A stretch of 21,852 bases of DNA, taken from positions 1 to 21,852 of the IMG/VR virus record IMGVR_UViG_3300010391_000452. The stretch is one strand, 5' to 3'. The notes below the pieces were generated by a model. The model had not been told where the DNA came from, ran no database searches, and saw only the letters and a list, made by a program, of their open reading frames with translations. Positions within the stretch are counted from its first letter, which is position 1. The number at the start of each line of letters is the position of its first letter. This DNA comes from a virus. Position numbers and translations under genes: made by a program. Below are positions 1,154 through 21,852 of this stretch, in pieces.

Positions 1154-1617
1154 AATCTAAAGATGTGTCTATTACTCCAACTATTGAAAAACTAGAAAAA
1201 GCTTTTGACAATGACCTGGACTTGATGTTGTTTTATCTGACGTGGGTTAAATGTGGTCTAAACGCTAGTAAAGCTTACAAAGAACTTCATCCACATGTTG
1301 ATGAACATTCAGCCCGTGTTCTTGGATCACGTCAGTTAGCAAAAGTTAACAAACCCACGATTATGCAAGCATACGGCCTAGATCATCAAACTTATTTTCA
1401 GCAATTAGCTGACGGGATGAAGGCAATTAAATCAGATATAACTGGACAAACCTATCCAGATCACAAGACAAGAGATGTTTATCATACTAAACTAGGAAAG
1501 ATATTAGGCATCGAAACTGATAAACCAGCGGGTATAACAGTCCAAGTCTTAGTAATGCCAGCAGAACTCATAAAAAAGTATGATCTTTCATCCAACACAA
1601 GCGGTAGTAGCAAGTGA
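1150..1617 (+). CDS. terS: Terminase small subunit
   Basis: A 155-residue protein immediately upstream of, and overlapping, the large terminase. Residues about 36-65 (NASKAYKELHP, then SARVLGSRQLAKV) match the N-terminal helix-turn-helix pattern of phage small terminases, where GN-x-T/S-x-A-Y precedes a second helix containing GS-x-L. Small terminase recognises packaging-initiation DNA and loads the large subunit. The C-terminal part is less conserved and ends in a Ser-rich tail. It starts in an ATGA overlap with the winged-helix gene and runs 38 nt into terL. Family assignment rests on the motif and the synteny. Confidence 0.75.
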   Translation: MKSKDVSITPTIEKLEKAFDNDLDLMLFYLTWVKCGLNASKAYKELHPHVDEHSARVLGSRQLAKVNKPTIMQAYGLDHQTYFQQLADGMKAIKSDITGQTYPDHKTRDVYHTKLGKILGIETDKPAGITVQVLVMPAELIKKYDLSSNTSGSSK

Positions 1618-8377: not shown

Positions 8378-9373
8378 ATGGCAACATTTCAAACACGATT
8401 TGATTTACAAAGAGAAACACAAGACGAACTCGCTAGGATCGAGGCTAAATCTAGTGGTTTAAGAACAACTACAGAGACGAATTTCTTAGCAGCGCTACTC
8501 CCCTATGTAACAAATAAGATTATAAGATGGTATACCGATCAAGTTACTAATCCTCAGAATCCTCGTGCTCATCTGTCAACCGATCCTATATTAGAAGCAG
8601 AAGGCAACTCCCTTCCCACTGGTTTTTCTGGATTCAGGAAAGGTTCGGTTTTTTACCTTCTAACAGATACAGGTAGGAATGTTTACTTAAACGCAGGAAC
8701 AGAATCGTCTGCTGTATGGAGAATCCCAGGAGCAGAAGCACCATCTGGATCTACATCTCTAAGCCCAAGCGCATCTTTAAGTATGTCGCCATCTCAGTCA
8801 AAGAGTGCGAGTCCATCTGCATCGGCAAGTATTTCTCTCTCGCCTAGTGCATCAGGATCAGCTAGTGCATCAGCTTCCCAGAGTGCCTCATCCTCTGTTT
8901 CTGCTTCGGCCTCGAAATCAGCGTCATCATCGGTTTCGGCCAGTGCAAGTGCTTCAGCTTCAAAGTCTGCTTCGGCATCAGGATCAGCCTCAGCTTCAGC
9001 TAGTGCATCTGCTAGTGCATCTAAGTCTCTTAGTCCATCAGCATCTCAGTCTATTTCTCCTTCGGGTAGTGCCAGTCCGTCTGGATCGCAGTCACCTAGT
9101 TCGTCGGTTAGTGCTTCTGGATCAGCCTCGGCTTCGGCATCTCAGTCTACTAGCGCAAGCGTCAGTGCCAGTTCATCTGCATCTATAAGTCCTTCGCCAT
9201 CCAAGAGTCCATCGGGAAGCGCATCAAAGTCTGCCTCAGCATCACTTAGTCCATCAGGAAGCCAGTCGCCATCAGGAAGTGCATCTAGATCATCAAGTGC
9301 ATCTCAAAGTCCTAGCGGTTCTCAGTCACCATCGGCCAGTGCCAGCCCGTCGTCATCACCATCTTTCCCATAA
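8378..9373 (+). CDS. Virion protein with a 209-residue Ser-alternating (mucin-like) C-terminus
   Basis: A 331-residue protein. An in-frame TTG at 8369 lies against the terminator T run, so ATG 8378 is preferred. Residues 1-40 are helical ([20 protein letters not shown]), residues about 85-118 look like a beta hairpin ([19 protein letters not shown]), and residues 123-331 have Ser at nearly every second position with Ala, Pro, Gly, Gln, Lys, Val, Leu or Ile between. The tract has no Thr-rich blocks or Cys and runs to the stop. It is probably a head- or tail-attached fibre or decoration protein with an extended Ser-rich arm. The arm is an obvious candidate acceptor for O-linked sugars, given the downstream glycosyltransferases. 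The attachment role is inference. Confidence 0.75.
8744..9370 (+). repeat. Ser-alternating low-complexity repeat tract 1
   Basis: This 627-nt tract encodes about 209 residues with a Ser-x dipeptide period (6 nt). Ser codons mix TCN with AGT/AGC throughout, so the protein repeat is kept while the DNA repeat is broken up. The 20-base block at 9017-9036 recurs exactly at 21673-21692 in the second tract. Confidence 0.9.
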
Positions 9374-9376
9374 ACT

Positions 9377-9721
9377 ATGAATACAGATCCAGCAGGTCAC
9401 AAATCAGTCAACATAACAACGAATACAACAACCTTTATTTCTGTACCAGGGAATATCTCTGGTGGTCAGTTGGTGTTAATTGCTCTAGTTGTAAACAAAA
9501 AAGGTGGATCTGGAAGTACAGTAGCTATTTATGACAGTAATGCCATAATCGGTGCCAATTCAGATGTTGAGAATGGATCTTCTAGACTCAAGGCTACTGT
9601 AGACGCTACAGACAGAGTAGGAACCTTGTCCTATGGATTCCCTATGTATAACGGGATATATGTTGTAAGTGGCGGCGGAACAATCGGAGATTACACTATA
9701 GTTTACAAAGAACTTCTTTAA
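9377..9721 (+). CDS. Small beta-rich structural (decoration-like) protein, 114 aa
   Basis: This gene starts 3 nt after the Ser-tract gene. The 114-residue product is almost all short beta strands and turns (VNITTNTTTFISVPGNISGG, then GTLSYGFPMYNGIYVVSGGG and IGDYTIVYKE). The pattern is common in small phage virion proteins that decorate heads or tail structures. There is no signal peptide or catalytic motif. Position in the structural block supports a virion role; exact function is unknown. An RHH operator/promoter follows closely. Confidence 0.6.
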   Translation: MNTDPAGHKSVNITTNTTTFISVPGNISGGQLVLIALVVNKKGGSGSTVAIYDSNAIIGANSDVENGSSRLKATVDATDRVGTLSYGFPMYNGIYVVSGGGTIGDYTIVYKELL

Positions 9722-9728
9722 GAGCCTC

Positions 9729-9758
9729 TTGACACCCTTATATTCTGCTACACATAAT
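9729..9758 (+). promoter_or_regulatory. Promoter of the RHH/anti-defence/glycan operon
   Basis: TTGACA (9729-9734), an 18-bp spacer, and CATAAT (9753-9758, five of six matches). The expected transcription start falls at about 9765-9766, on the ATG of the RHH gene, so that gene would be read from a leaderless or near-leaderless mRNA. No convincing promoter or terminator was found inside the next 11 kb of packed genes, so it may drive the whole cassette. Confidence 0.7.
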
Positions 9759-9765
9759 ATGTGTA
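9749..9765 (+). promoter_or_regulatory. 17-bp palindromic operator over the -10 box
   Basis: TACACATA-A-TATGTGTA is a perfect inverted repeat with 8-bp arms and a single central base. It covers the -10 box and the likely transcription start, and ends one base before the RHH start codon. A dimeric RHH protein binding here would block its own promoter, as known for Arc- and CopG-type repressors. Binding by this particular protein is inferred. Confidence 0.7.
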
Positions 9766-9942
9766 ATGAGACGTATAGACTTCTTAGCTGACAAAAAACA
9801 GGTCGAAACCTTAGAATCTTTTGGTGGAACTCTTAGTGAACATATCCGTAGAGCGCTTGATGAATACATTCAGAAAGTTAAACAGTCAAAGTTAGGTGTG
9901 AGCGCTTCAACTTCAAAGAAAGAAGGTGATACTAATGGGTGA
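9766..9942 (+). CDS. Ribbon-helix-helix (CopG/Arc-like) repressor, 58 aa
   Basis: A 58-residue protein. The N-terminal strand MRRIDFLADK is followed by helix KQVETLESFG, the turn GGTLSEH and helix IRRALDEYIQKV (residues about 24-38). This order and the S-E-x-I-R-x-A-L-x-E-Y pattern are those of RHH repressors, which bind palindromes as dimers through the strand. A 17-bp palindrome overlaps the promoter immediately upstream, giving strong support for autoregulation. The Ser/Lys-rich tail is probably flexible. The gene overlaps the Tad2-like gene by 8 nt, so the two are co-translated. Confidence 0.75.
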   Translation: MRRIDFLADKKQVETLESFGGTLSEHIRRALDEYIQKVKQSKLGVSASTSKKEGDTNG

Positions 9943-10186
9943 TGGTCAAACAATGAGTCCTCCTCCTGCTTCGATAGTTCAACCTACAACAATGTCTTTT
10001 CCAGATGCTATGCATGAAATAAAAGCTGGTAACAAAGTTGCTAGGATTTCTTGGCCAAAAGAGGATTTTGGACTTTTGAGAGATGATTGGTTGGAAATCT
10101 TCACAAATGGAGATTTTTATGTATGGAAGGTAAATGATGGTGATATTGAAGGTGAGGATTGGGTAGTAGTAGCAGATACAAATTAA
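9935..10186 (+). CDS. DUF2829 / Tad2-like protein, putative Thoeris anti-defence
   Basis: An 83-residue protein. GTG 9926 is an alternative start, but AGAAGGTGAT (9921-9930) is a Shine-Dalgarno placed for ATG 9935. Residues 20-40 (MSFPDAMHEIKAGNKVARIS) match the start of the DUF2829 fold (F-x-x-A-L-x-x-L-K-x-G-K-K-V-A-R-x-x-W). Residues about 62-79 (WKVNDGDIEGEDWVVV) match its end (W-x-x-x-x-x-D-x-x-A-E-D-W). Characterised Tad2 proteins of this family bind the signalling nucleotide made by Thoeris immunity. The middle is shorter than in typical members. The family call is fairly good; sponge activity is inference. It lies directly behind the RHH repressor and abuts the first glycosyltransferase. 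Confidence 0.6.
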   Translation: MGDGQTMSPPPASIVQPTTMSFPDAMHEIKAGNKVARISWPKEDFGLLRDDWLEIFTNGDFYVWKVNDGDIEGEDWVVVADTN

Positions 10187-11086
10187 ATGATCGACTTGAG
10201 TGTTTGTATACCTAGTAGAAACTCTGGTGGTGTTAATTTCTGTTCTAAAACTATACAAGATGTACTAGATAAGTCAGAAACTAATATAGAGGTTATTGTT
10301 CATGTTGATGAGGCTTGGCCAACTCCATTGGTAAGTGATAAAAGGGTTCATTATATTCATCCATCCTCTCCCGTAGGGTTGAGACAATCAGTTAATGCCT
10401 GTGTAGCAATAATGGCTACAGGTAAGTATATTCTTAAGACAGATGATCATTGTCTGTTTGGTCAAGGATTTGACAGGATTCTAATTGAAAATCACGGAGC
10501 CGATAATTGGGTACAAATTCCTCGTAGATACTCTTTAGACGCTGAAAACTGGAAGATAAATGAGTCACGACCATATAGAGATTATATGTATATCGATTTT
10601 CCTAGAAAAGGTAAGGCCCATGACGACGGAATGCACGGAGTTGAATGGTGGGACCGACAAAGAGAAAGGTCTGATCCTAGATTCGACATAGATGAGACAC
10701 CCTCTCTTCAAGGATCTTGTTACTTTATGACAAAGAATCACTTCGATAACTTTTTAGGGACTCTTGATCCGACATACTATGGTCATTTTGCTCAAGAATC
10801 TCAAGAAATAGGGTTTAAAACATGGTTGGGTGGCGGAGCAATGATGGTAAATAAGAAAACCTATTATGCCCACTTACATAAAGGGCATCAATACGGTCGA
10901 ATGTATAAATTGGATGATGCAGATCACAAGAGAGGAGCTAATTGGAGTGCTGGTTATTGGCTAAATAATCAGTGGGAGGGTAGAGTCCATGATTTTGCTT
11001 GGTTTATTGATGAAAAGTTTCCAAATATGCCATCTTGGCCTCTGGATTGGAAAGAACAGATAAGGAGTATGGGATGGACAAAGTGA
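10187..11086 (+). CDS. GT-A glycosyltransferase with DxHC motif (GT2/GT27-like), paralogue 1
   Basis: A 299-residue soluble enzyme starting at the base after the previous stop. The N-terminus LSVCIPSRN begins a nucleotide-sugar-binding Rossmann half. The metal motif is D86-D-H88-C89 (LKTDDHCLFGQGFD). An acceptor-side block has ETPSLQGSCYFMTK and FAQESQEIGFKTWLGGG, then YYAHLHKGH near residue 230. In eukaryotic polypeptide GalNAc-transferases the metal site is also DxH (DAHCE), with a late His and a GGEN-type block, so this group resembles GT27 more than standard DxD GT2 enzymes. Donor and acceptor are unknown. The two paralogues here start at 11983 and 19225. Confidence 0.8.
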   Translation: MIDLSVCIPSRNSGGVNFCSKTIQDVLDKSETNIEVIVHVDEAWPTPLVSDKRVHYIHPSSPVGLRQSVNACVAIMATGKYILKTDDHCLFGQGFDRILIENHGADNWVQIPRRYSLDAENWKINESRPYRDYMYIDFPRKGKAHDDGMHGVEWWDRQRERSDPRFDIDETPSLQGSCYFMTKNHFDNFLGTLDPTYYGHFAQESQEIGFKTWLGGGAMMVNKKTYYAHLHKGHQYGRMYKLDDADHKRGANWSAGYWLNNQWEGRVHDFAWFIDEKFPNMPSWPLDWKEQIRSMGWTK

Positions 11087-11163
11087 AATACAAATTAGTT
11101 CATTTGAAAGTTTTTGATCCTGAATTTAGTAATGTTGTGGATCAATATGTTGGACTGAAATGA
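11074..11163 (+). CDS. Small protein (29 aa) coupled to the glycosyltransferase
   Basis: ATG 11074 lies inside the end of the preceding gene, with AGGAG at 11063-11067 six bases upstream, one of the better ribosome binding sites in the window. It encodes 29 residues (MDKVKYKLVHLKVFDPEFSN and a short tail). It fills most of the 90-nt gap before the next gene, otherwise an unusually large gap in this cassette. No family is recognised. Confidence 0.4.
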   Translation: MDKVKYKLVHLKVFDPEFSNVVDQYVGLK

Positions 11164-11176
11164 AACCATTAAAAAT

Positions 11177-11986
11177 ATGAAGAAGATACTTATATTAGGC
11201 TCTACTGGGATGCTTGGATCAATGGTCTTAGGTTATCTTTCAACTAAGGAAGACTTAGAGATAACAGCCCCAACCAGAGAACAGATTGATGAAACGTCTT
11301 TCAAAGATTTCGACTATATAATAAACTGCATAGGAGTAATCAAACAAAAACTTACTGATGTCGAGGATGCCATCTATACAAATTCTCTTCTCCCCTACGC
11401 AATTTCTAAGAATAGATCACCAGAGACCAAGATTATACAGATAGCAACAGACTGTGTTTTCTCAGGTAAAAAAGGGGGCTACTTGGAAACGGATGAACAT
11501 GATGCTAGTGATGTATATGGTAAGACAAAGAGTTTAGGAGAAGTTAATGCAGAAGGATTCTTTAATATCAGAACTTCTGTAATTGGTCCGAGTAAGCGTG
11601 ATCAGGTTTCCCTTTTTGAGTGGTTTATGTCTCAGGAAAAGGGCGCTATCGTTAGAGGTTATGCTAATCATTTCTGGAATGGTGTTACAACTCTCCACTT
11701 TGCCAAGATGTGTTATGCGATTATAAAGAGGAATATAGATTTGCCGAATGTAATCCATTTCATTCCAGCAGATACGATTAGTAAATTACACTTACTCGAA
11801 GTTTTCTCTAAGAAATTTGATAGAGCCGATATCCAAATAGAATCTTTTTTTGCGGATCCCGCCATCGATCGATCTTTATTAACTAATGAAAAGTATAAAA
11901 ACTTGATTCTATGGAATGCTATGGGTTATGAAAATCCACCAACAATAGAAGAAATGGTCGAAGAATTGGCCAATTATATGAAATGA
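11177..11986 (+). CDS. RmlD-like SDR sugar reductase
   Basis: A 269-residue extended short-chain dehydrogenase of the dTDP-4-dehydrorhamnose reductase (RmlD) type, which reduces a 4-keto nucleotide sugar with NAD(P)H. The cofactor loop is GSTGMLG (8-14), IINCIGV follows the second strand, IATDCVFSG holds the catalytic Ser/Thr region, and Y114-G-K-T-K118 is the YxxxK pair. The substrate-binding half is present (FWNGVTTLHFAKM). No dTDP-glucose pathway genes (RmlA, B, C) are nearby, so the substrate may be another deoxy-keto sugar or come from the host. It overlaps the next gene by four bases. Confidence 0.8.
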   Translation: MKKILILGSTGMLGSMVLGYLSTKEDLEITAPTREQIDETSFKDFDYIINCIGVIKQKLTDVEDAIYTNSLLPYAISKNRSPETKIIQIATDCVFSGKKGGYLETDEHDASDVYGKTKSLGEVNAEGFFNIRTSVIGPSKRDQVSLFEWFMSQEKGAIVRGYANHFWNGVTTLHFAKMCYAIIKRNIDLPNVIHFIPADTISKLHLLEVFSKKFDRADIQIESFFADPAIDRSLLTNEKYKNLILWNAMGYENPPTIEEMVEELANYMK

Positions 11987-12924
11987 GTAAAGTATCAATA
12001 ATAATACCAGCGAGAGGAGAAAGTTTAGAAAACTTAAAAAGAACAGTTGATAGCGTTTATAGAAATGCGACTGGAGAATTTGAGATTATTATCGGATACG
12101 ATGGGACACCAAATTTAGGTTTACATGATTATCCAGAAAGTGATAATGGGATATTGAAAGTAATTGCTTTTCCTTCCACAGTAGGTATTAAAACCAATAT
12201 AAACGCTATGGCAGCTATGGCTACTGGCAAGTATATTTATAAGTCGGATGCTCACTGTAGATTCTCCGAAGGATTTGACGAAATTCTCCAACGAAGTATG
12301 CAAGATGACTGGATTGTAATGCCACGTTTCAAAATCATTAAAGAAGACTGGAGTATTCAAATGAGAGATGGTCAAGAAGAGTTCTATGATTACTTCTATT
12401 TGTGTTGCCCGTTCACTGATCCTAAAGGCTTTAGGTTTAAAGCTGGCGGTCATTGGAAAGAAAGAACAATGCAAAGACTTCCTCATACTCCATTACCTTT
12501 ATCTTTAGATAAATTTATAGATGAAACTCCCTCAATTCATGGTTCTGGATGGTTCATTACTAAAGATAGATACTTTGAACTTGGAGGTTTTCCAAATGTA
12601 GACGTATATGGCCACGCACAGGAGCCTATATGGCTTGCTATGAAAAACTGGATGGCTGGAGGTAAAGTGGTGGTAAACAAGGATTGCTGGTACGCACACC
12701 TTCATCAACAAGGAAATAAACGAGGTTACCATATGGATAGAGATCAAGAAAATAGGAGTTATAAACTAGCAGCTGACTTCTTTGTCGGTGATAAATGGGA
12801 TGATACTTGGCCGAAGAAAGTAATGACATTTGAACAATTTGTAGACAAGTTTATGCCTATGCCAACTTGGCCAGATGATTGGCGACAGAGATTACAAGAA
12901 TGGAAACTTACGAATACATCATAA
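11983..12924 (+). CDS. GT-A glycosyltransferase with DxHC motif, paralogue 2
   Basis: A 313-residue enzyme coupled by ATGA to the RmlD-like gene. It has the same order as its two paralogues: VSIIIPARGE at the N-terminus, D89-A-H91-C92 (YKSDAHCRFSEGFD) as metal-binding motif, ETPSIHGSGWFITK, GHAQEPIWLAMKNWMAGG and YAHLHQQGNKRG. DAHC is identical to the core of the DAHCE motif of polypeptide GalNAc-transferases. The C-terminus ends in FMPMPTWPDDWRQRLQEWK, close to the FPNMPSWPLDWKEQIRSM ending of paralogue 1, showing a shared ending. Sugar and acceptor are unknown. Confidence 0.8.
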   Translation: MSKVSIIIPARGESLENLKRTVDSVYRNATGEFEIIIGYDGTPNLGLHDYPESDNGILKVIAFPSTVGIKTNINAMAAMATGKYIYKSDAHCRFSEGFDEILQRSMQDDWIVMPRFKIIKEDWSIQMRDGQEEFYDYFYLCCPFTDPKGFRFKAGGHWKERTMQRLPHTPLPLSLDKFIDETPSIHGSGWFITKDRYFELGGFPNVDVYGHAQEPIWLAMKNWMAGGKVVVNKDCWYAHLHQQGNKRGYHMDRDQENRSYKLAADFFVGDKWDDTWPKKVMTFEQFVDKFMPMPTWPDDWRQRLQEWKLTNTS

Positions 12925-13538
12925 AAAAGTTCAATATAAACGTTGGTCGTCAATACACTGTAGATATTCCCGAAATGGTTGGAAGTGTCTCTTTAGTTAA
13001 GCTCTTCGCTGAATTGGGTTTTACCAAAGGAGCTGAAATTGGAGTTGATAGAGGTCTATTTTCTGAATATATGTGTCAGAACATTCCTAATTTACATCTT
13101 ACTGGAGTCGATCCTTGGACAAGAGATGTTTTTGAGGACGGAAACCCATACAAACTAGATCAATCATACTTTGATGGTTGTTACGAAGAGGCTAAACGAA
13201 GACTCGCTCCTTATAATTACACTCTTATTAAGAAAAAATCAATGGATGCACTAGCTGATGTACCCGATAACTCTCTTGACTTTGTATACATCGATGCAAA
13301 TCACGATTTTGTGAATTTTTCTCGTGATTTAGACGGATGGAAACATAAAGTACGCCCTGGAGGAATTGTTTCTGGACATGACTACGCTTACTACTCTTTC
13401 CGTAAAGTAAATCACGTTAAAAGAGCCTTAGACGCATATGCAATCTGTTATAGGATGCACCCTATCTTTGCTGTTATGTATGATCCTAGTGGCTTGAAAC
13501 GTGATAGATATCGAAGTTGGTTCTGGGTGAAGCAATGA
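12900..13538 (+). CDS. Class I SAM-dependent methyltransferase (Methyltransf_24-like), copy 1
   Basis: A 212-residue enzyme. An in-frame TTG at 12879 exists, but ATG 12900 is the natural start, giving a 25-nt overlap with the glycosyltransferase. Motif I, GAEIGVDRG (44-52), binds S-adenosylmethionine; LTGVDPW is the post-I acidic strand; VYIDANHDF (129-137, D132 and H135) and VRPGGIVSGHDY complete the Methyltransf_24 pattern typical of sugar O-methyltransferases in polysaccharide clusters. It probably caps or decorates a sugar made by this cassette. Position in the cluster supports this; the substrate is inference. Confidence 0.75.
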   Translation: METYEYIIKKFNINVGRQYTVDIPEMVGSVSLVKLFAELGFTKGAEIGVDRGLFSEYMCQNIPNLHLTGVDPWTRDVFEDGNPYKLDQSYFDGCYEEAKRRLAPYNYTLIKKKSMDALADVPDNSLDFVYIDANHDFVNFSRDLDGWKHKVRPGGIVSGHDYAYYSFRKVNHVKRALDAYAICYRMHPIFAVMYDPSGLKRDRYRSWFWVKQ

Positions 13539-14119
13539 AACCTATAATACTTGGACATTTTGGTCGCAGAACAGCGCTTATTCAAATGCTTCGAGAGCGT
13601 GGAGCAAAAATCGGTGCTGAAATAGGAACAGATCGTGGACAATATGCAGAGGAACTGTTTGGAGGAATACCAGATTTAGAGCTTATTTGCGTTGATCCCT
13701 GGTTACCATATACAGAAGGAAAAGAAATCTATAACCAGATTGATATGGACGATGTATTTAAAGAGGCGATGACGAGACTATCTCGTCATAATTCTAAAAT
13801 AATGAAGATGACTAGTATGGAAGCGGTCAAACAAATTCCAGACGAATCGTTGGACTTTGTTTTTATTGACGGTAACCATGAATATAACTATGTTTTAGAA
13901 GATATAACTGAGTGGACAAAGAAAGTTAAATCTGGTGGCGTTGTGGCTGGGCATGACTACGTTGAAAATTCAGAGAGATATTATGGGGTAATTGAAGCGG
14001 TCAACGAGTATATCAGTCGTAATAAAGTAGCACCCCTATTTATATTAAATGTACCATCTCATGTCCCAAAAAGGAAAAAGGGTAATTTTGTTGACTGCTG
14101 GATGTTTATAAAACCATGA
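13535..14119 (+). CDS. Class I SAM-dependent methyltransferase, copy 2
   Basis: A 194-residue paralogue of the preceding gene, overlapping it by ATGA; an upstream in-frame TTG at 13517 is less likely as start. GAEIGTDRG (27-35) is motif I, ELICVDPW the next strand, and FVFIDGNHEYN with D112 and H115, then VKSGGVVAGHDY, form the second half. The tandem arrangement suggests two different hydroxyls are methylated, or that the pair forms a heterodimer. The two proteins align throughout the core but differ at both ends, so they are diverged rather than recently duplicated. Confidence 0.75.
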   Translation: MKPIILGHFGRRTALIQMLRERGAKIGAEIGTDRGQYAEELFGGIPDLELICVDPWLPYTEGKEIYNQIDMDDVFKEAMTRLSRHNSKIMKMTSMEAVKQIPDESLDFVFIDGNHEYNYVLEDITEWTKKVKSGGVVAGHDYVENSERYYGVIEAVNEYISRNKVAPLFILNVPSHVPKRKKGNFVDCWMFIKP

Positions 14120-14634
14120 TAATCGGAAAAGGAGACATTGCTAGTATCTTAAAGGACAGAGATGATTGGTTGTTTTTTGCTTCTGGTGTGAGTAACAGTC
14201 AAGAAATAAAAGAATCCGAGTATACCCGAGAGAAAGAACTACTAAATCAGGTATTCCTCCAAACAGTTCCTCTGCTTACGCAGTCTAAAGACAGAAAGAT
14301 AGTTTATTTTAGTTCCTTAGCCGCTTTTTATGTCGATAGTAGATATTACAGACACAAAAGAGAGATGGAAGAACTTGTTAAAACTTTCCCAAGTTACGCA
14401 ATTGTACGCATAGGTAATATCTTGTGGGGTAAAAACCCTCACACTCTTATAAATTCTATGAAAGAAAGGGTCAAAAATGGTGAACCATTAGAAATAAGAG
14501 ACGAATATCGGTATGTAGTCGATAAAGAGGAGTTTTTGTACTGGGTCGGAGTTATTCCAGAGTGGAATGTTGAGCTGAGTATTCCAGGTAGACGTATGAA
14601 GATTAGAGAAATAGTAAAGGAATACGTATTATGA
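14116..14634 (+). CDS. Short SDR-like nucleotide-sugar reductase/epimerase (172 aa)
   Basis: A 172-residue protein with short-chain dehydrogenase landmarks but no full N-terminal cofactor loop: MIIGKGDIA replaces GxxGxxG. IVYFSSLAAFY contains the catalytic Ser region, Y77-Y-R-H-K81 is a YxxxK pair, and YAIVRIGNILWG follows as in sugar epimerases. About a third of a normal extended SDR is missing, mainly between strands 2 and 4 and at the C-terminus. It may be a specialised minimal reductase or a degenerate partner. Overlaps with both neighbours (ATGA) suggest it is still expressed. Confidence 0.6.
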   Translation: MIIGKGDIASILKDRDDWLFFASGVSNSQEIKESEYTREKELLNQVFLQTVPLLTQSKDRKIVYFSSLAAFYVDSRYYRHKREMEELVKTFPSYAIVRIGNILWGKNPHTLINSMKERVKNGEPLEIRDEYRYVVDKEEFLYWVGVIPEWNVELSIPGRRMKIREIVKEYVL

Positions 14635-15446
14635 TCTCAATTTTTGCTAAACCACCATTTATGATGAAGCATCTCCAAAGAGTATCATCAACGATTCGTG
14701 GTGAACAGATTGCGGCTTATATGGGAGGAGCTAGGCTTAATCCTCCAAGTGGATATGAAAATGACGTATGTATCTATGTAAAACCTCACATTAAGTCTGG
14801 GAGCGATTTTCACTTCGAGAAAAATTCATATATTGATATTCACGATGGGTGGGAGCTGACAGAAACCTTACAAAGGTATCCTGAAGTTGGAGTTATAGCT
14901 TACTCTGACTTGGCTATGGAAGCTCTCTCGTTTCTGAAGAATCGCAAAGTCCTTATTCCTCATCATCATCTTAATTTTGAAAGAGTAAGAAGAGAAAGAG
15001 ACACTATCAAAAAAGTTGGAATAACAGGATCACAGAGAGCATTTGATCATATTCCACAGGAAATAAAGGATGGACTGAGTAAAAGAAATATCAAACTTGA
15101 GTTTCACTCTCTTTTTTATCCAAGAATGGCTGTATCTAAGTTTCACGAGAGTTTAGATATACATTTACACTGGCGGCCTTATTTGAAAAGGAAATTGTCA
15201 GCTCCTTTCAAGATAATTAACGCCGCTTCTTTTGGCGTACCTACGATTGCGCTTGATGAACCAAGTTTTGATGAAATGGAAGGCTGTTATATTCCAGTTA
15301 AGACCCCAGAAGAGTTTTTGGAGAAACTAGATGGACTAATAGCCTCGAAAGAGTTATATGACGCTATTGCGAGATTATGTATTGAGAAATCAGAAAAATA
15401 TCACATAGAGAATATAGCAAAGTTATATTCAGCACTAGATCAATGA
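14631..15446 (+). CDS. GT-B glycosyltransferase (GT4-like)
   Basis: A 271-residue protein with a GT-B-type C-terminal half: HLHWRPYLKRKLSAPFKIIN then AASFGVPTIALDEPSFDEM corresponds to the donor-sugar segment of GT4 enzymes, in which a small-residue-rich helix precedes a conserved acidic residue. PVKTPEEFLEKLDGLI follows as in that family. The N-terminal acceptor half is shorter than usual (GT4 enzymes are mostly 350-400 residues). No membrane segment is present. It probably adds a sugar to a glycan begun by the DxHC enzymes; the donor is unknown. Coupled by ATGA to both neighbours. Confidence 0.7.
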   Translation: MISIFAKPPFMMKHLQRVSSTIRGEQIAAYMGGARLNPPSGYENDVCIYVKPHIKSGSDFHFEKNSYIDIHDGWELTETLQRYPEVGVIAYSDLAMEALSFLKNRKVLIPHHHLNFERVRRERDTIKKVGITGSQRAFDHIPQEIKDGLSKRNIKLEFHSLFYPRMAVSKFHESLDIHLHWRPYLKRKLSAPFKIINAASFGVPTIALDEPSFDEMEGCYIPVKTPEEFLEKLDGLIASKELYDAIARLCIEKSEKYHIENIAKLYSALDQ

Positions 15447-15838
15447 AAATAGGGATAACATTTGGAGCTTTTGACTTATTACATCCTGGTCACATTCTCT
15501 TCCTAAGAGAGTGTAAAGAGAGATGCGACACTTTATATGTTGCTTTACAAGTTGATCCGAGTGTAGAAAGAAAAGAAAAAGGTAAACCAGTTCAGAGTAT
15601 ATGGGAAAGATATCTCCAACTTAAAGGAAATAGAGATGTAGACGTAATAATTCCCTATGAAAGTAATCGAGACTTAATAAACATACTGGAGACAAAGGGA
15701 TTTGATGTAAGGTTTTTAGATAATAACTATCAAGAACATCCAGAGAAAATAATTGGTAAGGACATTGTTCCCATCGAATATATCTATAGAGGACACGATT
15801 ATTCATCCACTGAGTTAAGAAAAAGACTTAAAAGATGA
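15443..15838 (+). CDS. Cytidylyltransferase-family nucleotidyltransferase (TagD / HldE C-domain-like)
   Basis: A 131-residue enzyme that joins a sugar- or polyol-phosphate to a nucleotide. It shows the two family signatures: H14-P-G-H17 (FGAFDLLHPGHILFL) and SSTELR (121-126), the ISSTxxR motif. Size matches glycerol-3-phosphate cytidylyltransferase (TagD), but VDPSVERKEKGKPV also resembles the adenylyltransferase half of HldE. Lying immediately before HddA- and GmhA-type genes, it is the best candidate for the last step of a nucleotide-activated heptose pathway. Nucleotide preference (CTP or ATP) cannot be read from the sequence. Confidence 0.75.
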   Translation: MKIGITFGAFDLLHPGHILFLRECKERCDTLYVALQVDPSVERKEKGKPVQSIWERYLQLKGNRDVDVIIPYESNRDLINILETKGFDVRFLDNNYQEHPEKIIGKDIVPIEYIYRGHDYSSTELRKRLKR

Positions 15839-16800
15839 TAATAACTAAAACACCGCTGCGACTGAGCCTACTAGGAGGTAACACAGATTTCCGAGAGTAT
15901 TATCTCAACTATAGTGGATTAGTTTTAACAACGACAATTGATAAGTACATCTATTGCATTGTCAAAAAACGTTTTGATGATCTAATAATTATTAACTACA
16001 CAATCAAGGAAACAGTAAATAATGTTAATGATCTTAAGCACGATCTCGTAAGAGAGTCTTTAAAACTACTTGGAATTGAAAAGGGTATTGAAATATCATT
16101 TATGTCGGATATTCCAACTCGTGGTACAGGATTAGGATCAAGTAGTGCTGTAACAGTTGGAGTACTAAACGCTCTACATACTTATCTCGGAGATCAAGTT
16201 AGTTTATGGCAACTTGCTGATGAAGCTATAAAAATTGAATTGGACATACTCAAGAAGCCTATCGGTGTACAGGATCAGCACGCAGTTGTATTAGGAGGAT
16301 TGAGGGCAATATCATTGCCACAATCTGGTCAGGTTGAGGGACAAATGGTAAAGATTGATGAATCTGTTAAACAAGACTTCAATAATAGTTTGATGCTCTT
16401 ATATACAGGACTAGACCGAAGCTCAGACGAAATTTTATCTTCATTTAATTTGAAAAGAGACAAAGCGCTTCTTGATCAAAATAAAGTACTTGCAAATGAT
16501 GGTATAGCCGCTCTCCTTAAAGGCAATCTTCGGAGGTTTGGCGAACTTCTGGATATCTATTGGACTGTTAAGAAACAGTTAAGTAACAAAATAAGTAATT
16601 CCAAGATTGACGAAATGTATAAGTTAGCCAAAGATGCTGGTGCTATAGGAGGAAAAATAGTTGGAGCGGGTGGTGGTGGATTTTTACTGGTGATGTTTCC
16701 ATCGAACAAAAGAGCTTCGGTCCGAAAGGCATTGAAAGATTATAAAGAGTTGACGTTCAGATTTGGAGAAGAAGGAAGCAAGATTATATTTAACGCATGA
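15835..16800 (+). CDS. hddA: GHMP kinase, D-glycero-D-manno-heptose 7-phosphate kinase type
   Basis: A 321-residue GHMP kinase. TPLRLSLLGGNTDF at the N-terminus is the substrate-side motif typical of the heptose/fucose kinase subgroup. PTRGTGLGSSSAVTVG (94-109) is the ATP-binding loop, and GGKIVGAGGGGF (272-283) is motif 3. HddA makes heptose 1,7-bisphosphate for GDP-heptose, and this gene is followed by a GmhA-type isomerase, which supplies its substrate from sedoheptulose 7-phosphate. Length is normal and all motifs look intact. The main alternative within the family is an L-fucose kinase-like activity, less likely given the neighbours. Confidence 0.8.
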   Translation: MIITKTPLRLSLLGGNTDFREYYLNYSGLVLTTTIDKYIYCIVKKRFDDLIIINYTIKETVNNVNDLKHDLVRESLKLLGIEKGIEISFMSDIPTRGTGLGSSSAVTVGVLNALHTYLGDQVSLWQLADEAIKIELDILKKPIGVQDQHAVVLGGLRAISLPQSGQVEGQMVKIDESVKQDFNNSLMLLYTGLDRSSDEILSSFNLKRDKALLDQNKVLANDGIAALLKGNLRRFGELLDIYWTVKKQLSNKISNSKIDEMYKLAKDAGAIGGKIVGAGGGGFLLVMFPSNKRASVRKALKDYKELTFRFGEEGSKIIFNA

Positions 16801-17234
16801 TGAAAGAACTTGTAGACCTTATAAAAATGGCTCGTAGGGTGTTTGTCTGTGGCAATGGTGGCAGTGCTGCAACTGCAGAACATTTTACTAACGATTTATT
16901 TTCAAAAGGCATAAAGGCGATGTGTCTTAATAGCAATACTTCAATAATGACTATGATTGCTAATGATTTTGGATATCAGTATGTATTCAGTAATCAAATG
17001 AATGTTTATGCAACTCCGCACGACCTACTGGTTGTTTTTTCTGGTAGTGGCAATTCTCCGAATATAGTAGAGGTATTAAAACAGGGTATCTGCCCTAAAT
17101 TTGCTATTTTAGGGATGGGTGGTGGCGAAGCCGCAAAATTAGCGGATCATTATCTGATTGTTAACTCAAACAAATATGAAGTAATAGAGAACAAACACTT
17201 GTGGATTGCCCATAAGGTTAAAAAACTACTATGA
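16797..17234 (+). CDS. gmhA: SIS-domain isomerase, sedoheptulose 7-phosphate isomerase-like
   Basis: A 145-residue sugar isomerase domain. VFVCGNGGSAATAEHF (15-30) and FSGSGNS (81-87) are the phosphate-binding segments, and the C-terminus IENKHLWIAHKV keeps the His pair seen at the end of GmhA. GmhA turns sedoheptulose 7-phosphate into D-glycero-D-manno-heptose 7-phosphate, the substrate of the preceding kinase. The protein is about 45 residues shorter than usual and lacks most of the N-terminal helical hairpin that helps build the tetramer, so assembly may differ. It starts at tandem ATGs (16797 and 16800) in an overlap with hddA. Confidence 0.75.
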   Translation: MMKELVDLIKMARRVFVCGNGGSAATAEHFTNDLFSKGIKAMCLNSNTSIMTMIANDFGYQYVFSNQMNVYATPHDLLVVFSGSGNSPNIVEVLKQGICPKFAILGMGGGEAAKLADHYLIVNSNKYEVIENKHLWIAHKVKKLL

Positions 17235-18145
17235 GATATTTAGTAACAGGAGGAGCTGGATTTATAGGGAGTCATTTAGTAGATAGGCTACTGAAAGACA
17301 GTGATAACCATGTAATAGTATTAGACGATTTCTCTGAAGGAAAATGGGAAAATCTCCCATCAATTAAGACTAAAAACATGGTTGTATTCGGTGGATCTAT
17401 CTTAGACGATAACTCCTTCATCTATGAGAAAATAGATACCGTGTTTCATCTCGCTGCTTTGACTCGACCGAGAGAGTCAATGTTCAAACCAGAAGAATTT
17501 ACTCGTATCAATGTAGACGGAACCGTTAGAGTCTTAAAAAACTGTAGAGATAATAATGTAAAAAGGGTAGTTTTCATGTCCAGTGCCGCAACATATGGTC
17601 ATTTACCTCTACCTTTATACGAAGGTATGATTCAAGATCCCGCTAGTCCTTATGCTCTTACAAAGGTTGTTGGAGAGAGTTACTGTAAGTTATTCCAAAA
17701 GTTGTATGGCTTGAACATTAACTGCATAAGACCATTTAATGTCTATGGTCCTAGACAAAATCCGCACGGAGGATATGCTGGAGCTGTACCTAAATTCATA
17801 GATACTCTTAAAGAGGGTGGCAAACCCTTTATTACTGGAGATGGAAATCAAGTTAGAGACTTTGTTTATATAGATGACGTGGTCGATTTAATCCTTCTCG
17901 CAGCAGGATCTGAGATATCTGGGGAAGTATTTAATGCTGGATCTGGTAAAAACATCTCTATAAATGATCTGTATTCCGTGATATGCGAACTCATGGGGAA
18001 AAAGGTAACTCCAGAACACGTTTTACCAATGTTTGAGCCAGAGACATTAGCAGATATATCAAAAGCTGAAAAAATGTTAGGTTGGAAGCCAAAATTTCCA
18101 TTAGAGGAAGGTCTAAAAAGAACTATAGATGTACAAGGGAATTAA
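17231..18145 (+). CDS. NAD-dependent nucleotide-sugar epimerase/dehydratase (GalE-like extended SDR)
   Basis: A full-length 304-residue extended SDR. The cofactor loop is GGAGFIG (7-13), HLAALTRP follows strand 4, SSAATYG (117-123) carries the catalytic Ser, and Y141-A-L-T-K145 is the YxxxK pair. NVYGPRQNPHGGYAGAVPKF and VRDFVYIDDV are typical of UDP-glucose/UDP-GlcNAc 4-epimerases and related dehydratases. It lies directly after the heptose genes, where bacterial clusters often place an NDP-sugar epimerase. The exact substrate cannot be decided from motifs. Confidence 0.85.
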   Translation: MRYLVTGGAGFIGSHLVDRLLKDSDNHVIVLDDFSEGKWENLPSIKTKNMVVFGGSILDDNSFIYEKIDTVFHLAALTRPRESMFKPEEFTRINVDGTVRVLKNCRDNNVKRVVFMSSAATYGHLPLPLYEGMIQDPASPYALTKVVGESYCKLFQKLYGLNINCIRPFNVYGPRQNPHGGYAGAVPKFIDTLKEGGKPFITGDGNQVRDFVYIDDVVDLILLAAGSEISGEVFNAGSGKNISINDLYSVICELMGKKVTPEHVLPMFEPETLADISKAEKMLGWKPKFPLEEGLKRTIDVQGN

Positions 18146-18161
18146 AAAACCAGGTGAAATC

Positions 18162-18476
18162 GTGAAACATATACTATGTGTGTGTGATCATGGGAATAAT
18201 AGGTCTGTAACTATGTCTCATATTCTAAAATATGTAAGTAATTTTGAAACTTTGACGGCTGGGCTTGGTTATCACACTCCCGAAACACTAAAAATGTTGT
18301 TTGACTGGGCTGATGTAATTACTGTTCCAGAAGAAAAGTTGCTCCTTTTGATTCCAGAAGAATATAAATCAAAAATAAAATTCTATAACATTGGTGAAGA
18401 TGTTTATCCGAGACCTTTTAATAAGCAACTTTACTCAAAAGCTAATGCGCTGATGGAGGCAGATCCAATAGAATGA
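18162..18476 (+). CDS. CX5R phosphatase-like protein (COG4551/low-molecular-weight PTP type)
   Basis: An ATG at 18129 would overlap the epimerase gene, but AGGTGA (18153-18158) is a ribosome binding site for GTG 18162, and the fold starts there: KHILCVCDHGNNRS puts the P-loop C8-X5-R14-S15 at the N-terminus, as in small tyrosine-phosphatase-like proteins. FDWADVITVPEE and NIGEDVYPRPFN follow in the usual order, the latter a possible general-acid loop. Length is 104 residues. It could control a host or phage kinase, or remove a phosphate in sugar-nucleotide synthesis, where the cassette otherwise lacks a phosphatase. The active-site Cys and Arg are intact; function is inference. Confidence 0.6.
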   Translation: MKHILCVCDHGNNRSVTMSHILKYVSNFETLTAGLGYHTPETLKMLFDWADVITVPEEKLLLLIPEEYKSKIKFYNIGEDVYPRPFNKQLYSKANALMEADPIE

Positions 18477-19243
18477 AAATAACAATTATTGGTGCAGGTT
18501 GGGTGGGGAAAGCAATGAAACAGCTTTTTCCTGATGCTTGCGTTTATACACATCATATAGGAACCAAAGAGAAAGCAAATGAAGGAGACATCGCCTTTAT
18601 ATGTGTTCCTACGCCTTATACAGTCGATTCTAAGGGCCTTGAGGGTCGATTAGACACGTCTATAGTGGAAGAATGTGTAAGGTGGTGTAAATGTCCTATA
18701 ATTGTTATCAGATCGACAATAAACCCTGGTGATTCGGACTTCCTCTCTCTTAAATACAAGAAACGGATCGTTTTTCAACCAGAGTACCTCGGGGAAACTC
18801 CCCAACATCCGTTTTTAGATCAAAAAAATACCCCGTTTATGATAATTGGAGGAAAACCGAAAGACAGAAGAGAACTTATTAGCTTATATACTTCTGTCTA
18901 TAATGCCAATGTTAAGATCAGACAGGTAACAACTACCGAGGCCGAAGTGATTAAGCTTACTGAAAATCGAGCTATAGGATGTAAAGTTGCAGAATGCCAA
19001 GAATTGTATGACGTTTGTGAGATGGCTGGAGTTGATTACTATACAATTCGAGATGCAGTTTATGGTGACGACCCCCGCTTCAATCTCTGGTGGACATTCG
19101 TGTTCGAAAAGAGGGGTTTTAACTCAAAGTGTATTCCTAAAGATGTTTACGGGTGGTGTGCGTGGGCGGAGAGTGTTGGATATAATCCAGAAATTACCCG
19201 AGCGATATTAGAAAGAAATAAAAAATGGCTAACTACGATTTAA
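18473..19243 (+). CDS. Truncated UDP-glucose/GDP-mannose dehydrogenase-family protein
   Basis: A 256-residue protein with the first two of the three family domains. IIGAGWVG (5-12) is the NAD loop, FICVPTPYTVD and VIRSTINPG follow, VFQPEYLGE contains the substrate-site PEYL, and KLTENRAIGCKVAECQELYD is the central helix with its catalytic Lys. FNSKCIPKDVYGW puts the catalytic Cys at C220, in the position of the G-x-C-x-P-K-D motif. The C-terminal nucleotide-sugar-binding domain (about 120 residues) is missing. Either this is a minimal enzyme or it has a changed substrate. Family oxidises UDP-hexoses to uronates. Overlaps with both neighbours. Confidence 0.75.
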   Translation: MKITIIGAGWVGKAMKQLFPDACVYTHHIGTKEKANEGDIAFICVPTPYTVDSKGLEGRLDTSIVEECVRWCKCPIIVIRSTINPGDSDFLSLKYKKRIVFQPEYLGETPQHPFLDQKNTPFMIIGGKPKDRRELISLYTSVYNANVKIRQVTTTEAEVIKLTENRAIGCKVAECQELYDVCEMAGVDYYTIRDAVYGDDPRFNLWWTFVFEKRGFNSKCIPKDVYGWCAWAESVGYNPEITRAILERNKKWLTTI

Positions 19244-20856
19244 GCATACTTATTCCTGGTCGTAATGAAGAGCTGATGGGTCGTACTATTCAAGATATTC
19301 TTGAAAATATACAAGGTAATACGGAAATAATTGCTATTTTGGATGGGTATATACCAAATCCTGGTCTAAAACCAGATCCTAGACTCACAATTATTTACAA
19401 TCCAGAACCTGTTGGTCAAAGAGCTGCTGCAAATCAGGCAGCGAGAATTGCAAAAGGTAAATATGTTATGAAAGTTGATGCTCACTGTGCCTTTGATAAA
19501 GGTTTTGATATCAAAATGATAACTGATATGCAAGACGATTGGACAATGATTCCTACAATGAAGAACTTGCACGCCTTCGATTGGGTTTGTCCAGATGATC
19601 ACAGAAGATATCAAGGTCCGTCTGGTCCTTGTAAAGATTGTGGTAAACCGACAGTGAAAGATATTGTGTGGATTCCAAAAGCAAGTCCGAATAGTCATTC
19701 TTTCAGATTTGATAAAACAATGCATTTTCAGTACTTCAATGAGTACTCCAAAAGACCAGAAGTACAAAAGGGAATTGAAGTAAACGGTGTTTACGATCCG
19801 TTATTAAGAGAAACACTAAGTATCCAGGGATCATGTTTTATGTGTACTAAGGAGAAATTCTTTGAACTTGGCCTTTGCGGTGAGGAATTTAATAGTTGGG
19901 GACAACAAGGAGTCGAGGTAGCCTGTAAAACATGGTTATCTGGAGGTCGGGTGGTTGTTAGTCTGAAAACTTGGTATGCTCATATGTTTAGAACTCAAGG
20001 TGGAGACTTCAGTTTTCCTTACTCTAATCCTCAATCAAAGGTTCAAGAAAATAGGGAATTGTCTAGACAACTGTTTCAACACGATGGCTGGCCCAAAGCA
20101 ACTCGTAAATTTCAGTGGTTATTGGATAGATTCAACCCTCCAGATTGGGATAAATTAACTAAAGGAATTTGTTACTACTCAGACAATGAACTTGATGGAA
20201 CCAAACTTGGCGAAGAAGTAAAGGCTAGACTTAAGAAAATAAGTCAAGACAAGAATATCCCAATTACTACGGCTTGTCTCAAGAAGATTGATCTAGGAGT
20301 TAAAAACGTACACTTTCCCTCTATGAAACGAGGAATATATACGATGTTTAAACAGATTCTTGCTTCTTTGGAAAATAGCACAGCAGATATAGTTTACTTA
20401 TGTGAAGCTGATGTACTGTATGATTCTTCTCATTTTGATTTCACTCCACCAAGAAATGACATCTACTACTATAACCAGAACAACTGGCAACTGAGAGTGG
20501 ATGATGGATTTGCCGTATATTTTGATTGTAAAAGAGTAAGTCAATGTTGTGCATATCGAGAACTTTTAATAGAACACTATAGGAAGAGACTCAAGATGGT
20601 TGAAGAGATCGGTTTTAGTAGAGCTATGGGATTTGAGCCAGGTAGTCATAATAGACCAGAGAGGGTTGACGATGTTAAATCTGACATTTGGAGATCAGAG
20701 ATTCCTAGTATTGATTTAGCACATGGAAAAAATGTTACCAGTCGTCATTGGAGACAACAGGATTTTAGGAATCAAAGAAATTGTCAAAATTGGCAAGAAG
20801 GATACAGTATTCCAGAGTGGGGAGAAACAAAAGAGATTATTAAGCTTCTTAAGTAA
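19225..20856 (+). CDS. Two-domain glycosyltransferase: DxHC GT-A domain with zinc-ribbon-like insert plus second GT-A-like domain
   Basis: A 543-residue protein, the third DxHC paralogue and the only fused one. Residues 1-305 carry LSILIPGRNEE, D85-A-H87-C88 (VDAHCAFDKGFD), ETLSIQGSCFMCTK, VACKTWLSGG and TWYAHMFRTQGGDF; the last recalls the late HVFR segment of polypeptide GalNAc-transferases. An insert holds C122, H126, C136 and C139 in C-x3-H...C-x2-C spacing, likely a small zinc site. Residues about 312-543 form a second domain with CEADVLY (393-399) as a possible metal motif and a conserved-looking DDGFAVYF strand, resembling another GT-A fold. It may add two sugars in sequence. It overlaps the previous gene by 19 nt and closes the cassette. 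Confidence 0.75.
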   Translation: MANYDLSILIPGRNEELMGRTIQDILENIQGNTEIIAILDGYIPNPGLKPDPRLTIIYNPEPVGQRAAANQAARIAKGKYVMKVDAHCAFDKGFDIKMITDMQDDWTMIPTMKNLHAFDWVCPDDHRRYQGPSGPCKDCGKPTVKDIVWIPKASPNSHSFRFDKTMHFQYFNEYSKRPEVQKGIEVNGVYDPLLRETLSIQGSCFMCTKEKFFELGLCGEEFNSWGQQGVEVACKTWLSGGRVVVSLKTWYAHMFRTQGGDFSFPYSNPQSKVQENRELSRQLFQHDGWPKATRKFQWLLDRFNPPDWDKLTKGICYYSDNELDGTKLGEEVKARLKKISQDKNIPITTACLKKIDLGVKNVHFPSMKRGIYTMFKQILASLENSTADIVYLCEADVLYDSSHFDFTPPRNDIYYYNQNNWQLRVDDGFAVYFDCKRVSQCCAYRELLIEHYRKRLKMVEEIGFSRAMGFEPGSHNRPERVDDVKSDIWRSEIPSIDLAHGKNVTSRHWRQQDFRNQRNCQNWQEGYSIPEWGETKEIIKLLK

Positions 20857-20886
20857 TTGTCTCCAATCAATATCATTCTTTATTCT
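20857..20886 (+). promoter_or_regulatory. Weak promoter-like pair before the second structural gene
   Basis: TTGTCT (20857-20862) and TATTCT (20881-20886) are separated by 18 bp, the same spacing as the two stronger promoters. Each box matches the consensus at only four of six positions. The following ATG at 20893 would lie at about the transcription start, as it does for the RHH gene. It is listed as a possibility only. Confidence 0.25.
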
Positions 20887-20892
20887 TAGCTC

Positions 20893-21852
20893 ATGGGAGT
20901 TCTAACTTCTACTACATTTTTAGGCGGTGCAGGAAGATTTTTAATCGGACCCCAGACGTGGGCGAATGCTCACGATGCTACAGACGCCTCTTCAAATTTT
21001 GCAACCTACGAAGTCGAAGCAGAACTATTCGCTGGTAATTACTACATCGAAAGAACGGCACTTCCTAATGGAGAGACGGCGGATATTCCAGATGGCGCTA
21101 CGATTACAGATGCCAGACTTAATTTTGATGCTTATACAACACTTGATGCTCTAACAATCCATGTTATTCAGACGACACAAGCAACAACATCCTCTAGAGA
21201 TAACGCTGATTTCGACCAACTTACGAGCGGTACTTCGGGTGGGTCAACGACTATAAGCAATGGCTCTCCAGCTCAGGCCGCTTCTATAATCTTTAACGCT
21301 ACTGGCCGTGGATGGATAAACAAAACTGGAATATCCAAGTTGGGAATTATTTGTGATGCTGATCTAACCAATATCGCTCCTGGTACTTCGGAGGAAGGAA
21401 TTGTTGTCATAACTAATGTTCAACTGGTTGTAACTTATACGAGTGAAAGTGCTTCCCAGAGTCCTTCAGGATCGCTTTCGCCCTCTGCATCAGGTTCTGC
21501 AAGTGCATCTAAATCACAAAGTCCTTCCGCTTCTCTGTCTCCAAGCGCTTCATTATCACCCTCTGCATCTCTTTCACCTTCTGCAAGCGCCTCTGCTTCA
21601 TCAAGCGCATCTCTTTCACCTTCTGCAAGTCAATCTCCCAGTTCTTCGCCATCAAGTTCTGCTTCAGCCTCTGCATCTAAGTCTCTTAGTCCGTCGGCAT
21701 CCCCCAGTATCGGATATGCTGGATATACGAGAGGAAATTATGCCGTTCTTCCGTCGGACGATGCAGATTTAGAAACTGTTTATTCTGCTCAGGATATTAT
21801 CGATGTAGCAACCAGTGATGATGTAAGGGTAGGACAGGTTGGAACAGGCGAG
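20893..21852 (+). CDS. Structural protein: beta-sandwich, Ser-alternating linker, further domain (partial at right edge)
   Basis: An open frame from ATG 20893 to the window end (320 codons, no stop). Residues about 30-184 are beta-rich; IPDGATITDARLNFDAYT and VITNVQLVVTYT are typical of DNRLRE-like jelly-roll domains of phage and secreted surface proteins. Residues 186-272 are a Ser-alternating tract like that of the protein at 8378, and residues 273-320 start a new domain (YAGYTRGNYAVLPSDDADLE). The tract therefore acts as a linker between folded domains here, in contrast to its C-terminal position in the first protein. Probably a tail fibre or virion surface protein. Its C-terminus is unseen. 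Confidence 0.75.
   Translation, partial: MGVLTSTTFLGGAGRFLIGPQTWANAHDATDASSNFATYEVEAELFAGNYYIERTALPNGETADIPDGATITDARLNFDAYTTLDALTIHVIQTTQATTSSRDNADFDQLTSGTSGGSTTISNGSPAQAASIIFNATGRGWINKTGISKLGIICDADLTNIAPGTSEEGIVVITNVQLVVTYTSESASQSPSGSLSPSASGSASASKSQSPSASLSPSASLSPSASLSPSASASASSSASLSPSASQSPSSSPSSSASASASKSLSPSASPSIGYAGYTRGNYAVLPSDDADLETVYSAQDIIDVATSDDVRVGQVGTGE
21448..21708 (+). repeat. Ser-alternating low-complexity repeat tract 2
   Basis: 261 nt encode about 87 residues with Ser at nearly every second position (LSPSAS units recur). It shares the exact block GCATCTAAGTCTCTTAGTCC (21673-21692) with tract 1 at 9017-9036, and near-identity continues for about ten more bases. The two tracts probably share ancestry or have exchanged sequence. 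Confidence 0.9.

Follow-up and report, generated by a model that had tools for sequence, protein, structure and literature searches.

Candidate phage-encoded mucin-type O-glycosylation of Ser-alternating virion stalks in a probable Patescibacteria phage

Here we describe a viral sugar cassette that is bracketed by two genes for long Ser-alternating stalks, and we propose that the phage carries out mucin-type O-glycosylation of its own virion stalks, the best reading of the locus, to which we assign a probability of roughly 0.7. The window (the whole IMG/VR record, 21,852 bases, classed as linear and probably a fragment) is part of a tailed-phage genome, in which packaging genes are followed by a scaffold-like gene, the major capsid protein gene, Ser-stalk gene A, the sugar cassette and Ser-stalk gene B (Table 1). 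The initial annotation had placed an 11-kb sugar cassette between the Ser-tract genes, and this arrangement is real; the cassette spans approximately 10.2 to 20.9 kb, and the end of its last gene, encoding the third DxHC glycosyltransferase (GT3), lies 36 bp from the start of stalk gene B.

Table 1. Features of the window, with coordinates, strand and supporting evidence.
Feature	Coordinates	Strand	Evidence or remarks
Terminase	1580-2911		Among packaging genes
Major capsid protein	7183..8289	+	PHROG phrog_267 major head protein, E=9.7e-17; 162 viral relatives
Ser-stalk protein A	8378..9373 (ATG 8378, stop 9373)	+	Conserved 122-aa N domain, then Ser-alternating tract; C-terminus ..SFP
Ser-alternating tract A	8744..9364	+	104 Ser in register, 207 aa
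Small ORF after stalk gene A, ahead of the cassette	9377..9721	+	Present in 22 loci
Tad2-like (Thoeris anti-defence 2-like) small protein	9926..10186	+	PF11195, E=8.7e-8; 70 loci
DxHC glycosyltransferase 1 (GT1), pp-GalNAc-T-like, single domain	10187..11086	+	Pfam Glycos_transf_2; profile relatives
RmlD-like NAD sugar reductase	11177..11986	+	PF04321, E=1e-12
DxHC glycosyltransferase 2 (GT2), the enzyme modelled	11983..12924	+	Profile; model pLDDT 92.5; Foldseek
Methyltransferase 1 (Methyltransf_24)	12879..13538	+	PF13578; relatives in 88 loci
Methyltransferase 2 (Methyltransf_24)	13517..14119	+	PF13578
Cassette protein without Pfam or NCBIfam match	14116..14634	+	30 loci
Weak GT-B (group 1) glycosyltransferase-like protein	14631..15446	+	PF13692/PF13524, E ~0.005, under cut-off
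Cytidylyltransferase-like nucleotidyltransferase (HldE-C / TagD type)	15443..15838	+	Pfam/NCBIfam scans
GHMP sugar kinase, HddA-like	15835..16800	+	NF049969, 152 bits vs cut-off 600
SIS-domain isomerase, GmhA-like	16797..17234	+	TIGR00441, 93 bits vs cut-off 209
NAD sugar epimerase/dehydratase	17231..18145	+	PF01370, E=6.9e-56
Small protein with CX5R sequence (CDHGNNR)	18129..18476	+	No Pfam match
UDP-sugar dehydrogenase-like protein, below full length	18473..19243	+	PF00984, PF03721
DxHC glycosyltransferase 3 (GT3): pp-GalNAc-T-like domain and C-terminal domain with invariant ExD	19225..20856	+	
Ser-stalk protein B, truncated at the contig end	20893..21852	+	N domain non-conserved
Ser-alternating tract B	21442..21708	+	45 Ser in register, 89 aa

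The presumed acceptors are unusually regular. In protein A, 104 consecutive Ser occupy every second position, and the next-longest alternating run in the protein is 1. The two virion-region Ser genes thus flank the cassette as the initial annotation had stated, with its tract lengths of 209 and at least 87 residues corrected to 207 and 89; tract B is complete, as it is followed by approximately 48 non-Ser residues before the contig end, which truncates the protein and not the tract. All six Ser codons are used in the tracts, with TCN and AGY intermixed, the longest exact DNA repeat within tract A is 14 bp, and TRF found two short arrays only. These features rule out a recent DNA tandem repeat as the origin of the tracts; since the DNA is hardly repetitive and the two codon classes are mixed, the alternation is held at the level of the protein. 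Across 68 relatives of protein A that are complete, tracts reach a median of 90.5 alternating Ser. Their intervening positions are filled mostly by A, P, L, G, V and K, with aromatic residues, D, N and H almost absent, and SFP is the most frequent C-terminus. The N domain of protein A (8378-8743), found in approximately 108 loci, was modelled with a pLDDT of 93.9 and has no fold match in the PDB or BFVD at E<=0.001; judged from the model, it is likely a new head-region virion fold.

The enzymes that would glycosylate these tracts are related to one another, GT2 and GT3 being 33-35% identical to GT1 and all three belonging to Pfam Glycos_transf_2. They share the DxHC motif and an invariant late block around YAH, so the common motif and late-His block noted in the initial annotation are real. 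Its suggestion that they resemble polypeptide GalNAc-transferases (pp-GalNAc-Ts) is likewise supported. As a single query GT2 gave a weak match to GALNT10, and a profile built from 86 relatives of the glycosyltransferases returned pp-GalNAc-transferases first when searched against the PDB, with GALNT1 at E=5e-17, TgGalNAc-T3 at 3e-15, GALNT9 at 1e-14 and GALNT4 at 4e-14, and with GALNT10, 12, 2 and 7 also matched. The alignment of the profile with GALNT covers approximately positions 4-256, the whole catalytic domain, acceptor half included, whereas most non-GALNT matches (chondroitin and heparosan synthases, GalT1, SpsA) are confined to the N-terminal third to half, which binds the nucleotide. 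The same annotation had proposed comparing predicted structures of the DxHC enzymes with known folds, and the AlphaFold2 model of GT2 (pLDDT 92.5) agrees with the profile: the best 50 Foldseek matches in the PDB are all pp-GalNAc-T chains (best E 3e-18, TMq 0.55-0.67), with approximately 16-21% identity in the structural alignments. For the modelled enzyme, TM-scores in this range and a high rmsd over long alignments indicate that the fold and family neighbourhood are shared and that it is no close copy.

Conservation of the putative metal site is consistent with this placement. All 86 members have D89, H91 and H239, and these residues align with the three metal ligands, H239 falling on the late His of GALNT1; the patterns used for recruitment included DxHC, and the invariance of D89 and H91 is therefore partly a product of selection, whereas that of H239 is not. 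In TgGalNAc-T3 of T. gondii, Mn is bound by D, H and the late His (PMC11074326), and DxH in place of DxD marks GT27 and GT60, both of which O-glycosylate Ser/Thr of polypeptides (PMC7185993). Most of the 86 members are 250-350 aa in length, and neither they nor GT3 have a Pfam match to the ricin-type lectin domain that is usual in GT27. At E<=0.001, none of the 86 members matches PF11397, the Pfam family of GT60. From sequence and model, the DxHC enzymes appear to be GT27-like, matching GT27 in fold and metal site but lacking its lectin domain. The C-terminal domain of GT3 (20155-20853), with its invariant ExD, was found in 71 loci, in some as an ORF of its own, and has no Pfam or PDB match; it is a candidate for a new GT-like family. 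By eye, two relatives (L060 and L154) have a methyltransferase-like domain fused in its place.

The initial annotation had also proposed searching for co-occurrence of DxHC genes with Ser-alternating virion genes, and the two do travel together, in counts that share ancestry throughout, the loci being related and not independent trials. With the capsid gene as an anchor that is neutral to both tract and glycosyltransferase (80 viral loci taken), a Ser-tract gene lies right after the capsid gene, no more than 700 bp away, in 60/60 loci that extend at least 1 kb downstream, and a DxH glycosyltransferase is found in 37 of the 39 loci that extend at least 3 kb downstream. Anchored on the glycosyltransferase, at least 20 alternating Ser occur in 69/79 viral loci within the locus DNA covered; a pattern search of complete records gave tract-like matches in L049, which is among the ten tract-less loci, and in several metagenome-assembled genomes (MAGs), and a single short match in L051. 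When sugar epimerases served as the anchor, the tract was present in 4/4 DxH-positive and 0/38 DxH-negative viral loci (Fisher 9e-6), the latter amounting to 0.55 Mb at a threshold of at least 20 alternating Ser. Direct adjacency is no more than suggestive: a DxH glycosyltransferase is the next gene for 35 of 100 Ser genes, compared to 24.4 +/- 4.2 in shuffled gene order, which is only modestly higher. In adjacent pairs, a mostly one-domain glycosyltransferase follows the stalk gene at a median of 42 bp, and a mostly two-domain one precedes it at a median of 25 bp; the two-domain type tends to sit directly upstream of the second stalk gene.

The DxH glycosyltransferase occurs in 6/380 Patescibacteria genomes, as expected of a viral gene. 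A scan of 362 such genomes for at least 40 alternations gave five of Ser type, assigned by eye from the matched DNA, of which three are glycosyltransferase-positive, compared to 2/357 of the others (Fisher 1e-5). The remaining Ser-type genomes, G146 and G247, have long tracts and no DxH glycosyltransferase. The genome scan, which used the pattern WSNNNN, also picks up Thr-Pro repeats, and long Thr-alternating repeats of this type were observed in five Patescibacteria genomes (G132, G089, G087, G210 and G263), possibly as parts of cellular surface proteins. Among viral loci, a TCNNNN x14 scan gave six with long varied tracts of at least 40; a DxH glycosyltransferase is present in L291, L315 and L384, and none was found within the fragment DNA of L294, L306 and L376, which may use another enzyme or be incomplete. 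A TCNNCN scan for Ser tracts returned mostly other frames or homo-Ser and no DxH glycosyltransferase, and serves as loose background only.

Pairing of enzyme and tract extends beyond the capsid type of the window. Fifty-five glycosyltransferase loci lack the window-type capsid protein, and annotation of two of them, L058 and L082, showed capsid family phrog_1357 instead of phrog_267. In this second lineage the pairing sits on unrelated virion proteins: L058 has up to 382 alternating Ser, L074 has Laminin_G_3 domains ahead of the tract, and L155 has a Gly-rich domain on the Ser-tract protein. What the loci have in common is the tract and the glycosyltransferase, not the carrier protein, and this is the strongest argument for the tract as the presumed acceptor. 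In L068, a single protein (13863-16589) combines a Laminin_G_3 domain, a Ser tract and a Sipho_Gp37 minor tail domain, an order that would read as a Ser stalk fixed to the tail and bearing a lectin-like head.

These patterns bear on two alternative readings. The cassette might remodel the host surface, for receptor masking or superinfection exclusion, with the Ser tracts as flexible linkers and the co-occurrence a property of one virus group. Nucleotide-sugar enzymes and glycosyltransferases are common in phages, O-antigen nucleotide-sugar biosynthesis genes have been reported in groundwater Patescibacteriota phages (PMC12911398), and the loci are phylogenetically related; yet the nearest solved structures are polypeptide transferases across the whole domain, DxH-less sugar cassettes lack Ser tracts, the pairing spans two capsid lineages and differing stalk-bearing proteins, and the genes lie in the structural region, directly 3' of the capsid gene. 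We consider host-surface remodelling unlikely. The glycosyltransferases could also act on a lipid carrier, a host glycan or some other protein. Quite improbable, in our view, is that their target is a different virion protein, for instance the capsid protein, with the Ser tract not serving as acceptor. There is precedent for this in the mycobacteriophages Che8, Corndog and Myrna, whose own glycosyltransferases add sugars to proteins of the capsid and the tail tube (Freeman 2023, cited by PMC12363180 and PMC11256854), and the capsid gene adjoins the stalk gene; against it, the DxH family pairs with Ser-tract genes in the phrog_1357 as well as the phrog_267 lineage, and the Ser-alternating tract is the element common to the loci, on otherwise unrelated proteins.

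In the mechanism that we infer for glycosylation of the virion stalks, from transferase activity to sugar identity and role on the virion, two structural proteins would present extended Ser-alternating stalks, and nucleotide sugars would be made by the other cassette enzymes. A cytoplasmic GT-A DxHC enzyme, working with an activated sugar and with a metal coordinated by D-x-H and the late His, would place the first sugar on stalk Ser, DxHC paralogues and other cassette enzymes would extend the glycan, and the methyltransferases would cap it; that methyltransferase relatives occur in 88 loci was counted in favour of virion glycosylation. The outcome would be sugar-coated stalks that act as rigid spacers, as a shield and possibly as lectin-bearing arms. 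A variant that partly overlaps this scheme has the stalks primed by another cassette enzyme, for example the GT-B-like protein, with the DxHC enzymes extending the glycan. Three DxHC paralogues per genome would fit such a division of labour, as would the priming of bacterial Ser-rich repeat proteins (SRRPs) by a GtfA/GtfB pair (PMC6973325), but it is the DxHC family whose members resemble polypeptide transferases, and relatives of the GT-B-like protein occur in only 37 loci compared to 136 for the DxH glycosyltransferases, so it cannot be the universal primer. This variant, too, we regard as unlikely.

Autotransporter heptosyltransferases of bacteria modify Ser in repeat proteins with heptose, and the initial annotation had drawn on them, together with a nearly complete nucleotide-heptose route. 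GmhA-, HddA- and HldE-C-like proteins are indeed present, all scoring far under their equivalog cut-offs; the cassette epimerase is not specifically HldD-like, and Pfam and NCBIfam scans of the cassette found neither GmhB nor a match to a heptosyltransferase family, in which the window differs from the autotransporter systems. Heptose-like genes occur in approximately 20 loci only, compared to 136 with a DxH glycosyltransferase. The heptose module is accessory, and we abandoned heptose as the central sugar and with it a central role for the autotransporter parallel. Two small cassette proteins deserve mention in their own right. CDHGNNR in the protein at 18129-18476 is a CX5R-like phosphatase signature, seen in 8 loci only, and this protein could be the missing phosphatase step. 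The Tad2-like protein (PF11195, 9926-10186) lies just upstream of GT1, and its 70 loci are mostly capsid-bearing; it is possibly a Thoeris anti-defence protein carried along in a structural operon.

Several known systems share elements with the one proposed here. Eukaryotic mucin-type O-glycosylation by GT27 has in common with it the GT-A fold, D-x-H-C, the late metal His and similarity over approximately 250 residues; unlike GT27, the window enzymes are found in probable bacterial viruses, are approximately 16-21% identical to it and lack the ricin-type lectin domain, and the presumed acceptor, for a donor that is likewise presumed, has strictly alternating Ser. The SRRPs of streptococci, staphylococci and lactobacilli also have long domains in which Ser alternates with small residues, encoded in clusters with glycosyltransferases; these domains are proven O-glycan acceptors, and some SRRPs carry lectin-like binding regions (PMC6973325). 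In contrast to the virion genes and GalNAc-T-like enzymes of the window, SRRPs are surface adhesins that depend on accessory Sec export and GtfA/GtfB priming, and the cassette proteins of this fragment record have no Pfam or NCBIfam match to the GtfA/GtfB pair or accessory Sec. Mycobacteriophages, too, have a phage-encoded glycosyltransferase cassette, which decorates the phage's own virion proteins. By eye, Che8 gp108 resembles a fusion of a GT2 domain with a methyltransferase-like one; among Che8 gp108-110, however, only gp108 reaches 20 bits, over a partial domain and with DDDD instead of DxH.

The virus is known from metagenomes only. With few exceptions, the named genomes matched by the glycosyltransferase family are Patescibacteria MAGs (Woesebacteria, Collierbacteria, Zambryskibacteria and others), an assignment made via binning, and the host is probably one of these ultra-small bacteria. 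A tblastn search of 50,697 phage records gave no match for GT1 or GT2, and the capsid protein has remote cultured-phage relatives only. In the literature searched, with subscription journals mostly outside it, we found no paper on the pairing of a DxH glycosyltransferase with a Ser-alternating virion protein.

Glycosylation of virions by phage glycosyltransferases is already known from mycobacteriophages; what is new here is the pairing of enzyme and presumed acceptor. As far as we found, glycosylated phage virions have been shown in a small number of mycobacteriophages only, whose particles are shielded by the glycan. In the loci described here, enzyme and presumed acceptor are legible together from sequence in more than 100 related loci, and the SxSxS code can be tested with synthetic peptides. 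More broadly, we think it somewhat more likely than not that self-contained mucin-type O-glycosylation is widespread in phages, apparently of Patescibacteria, with GT27-lineage enzymes dedicated to strictly Ser-alternating virion stalks that occur in two or more capsid lineages and on proteins of the head region, of the tail and of lectin-like type. If true, relatives of the animal mucin initiators would exist in prokaryotic viruses together with a visible acceptor code, which bears on the origin of mucin-type glycosyltransferases, on the nature of uncultured Patescibacteria phages and on the display by phages of lectin-like domains on sugar-stiffened stalks.
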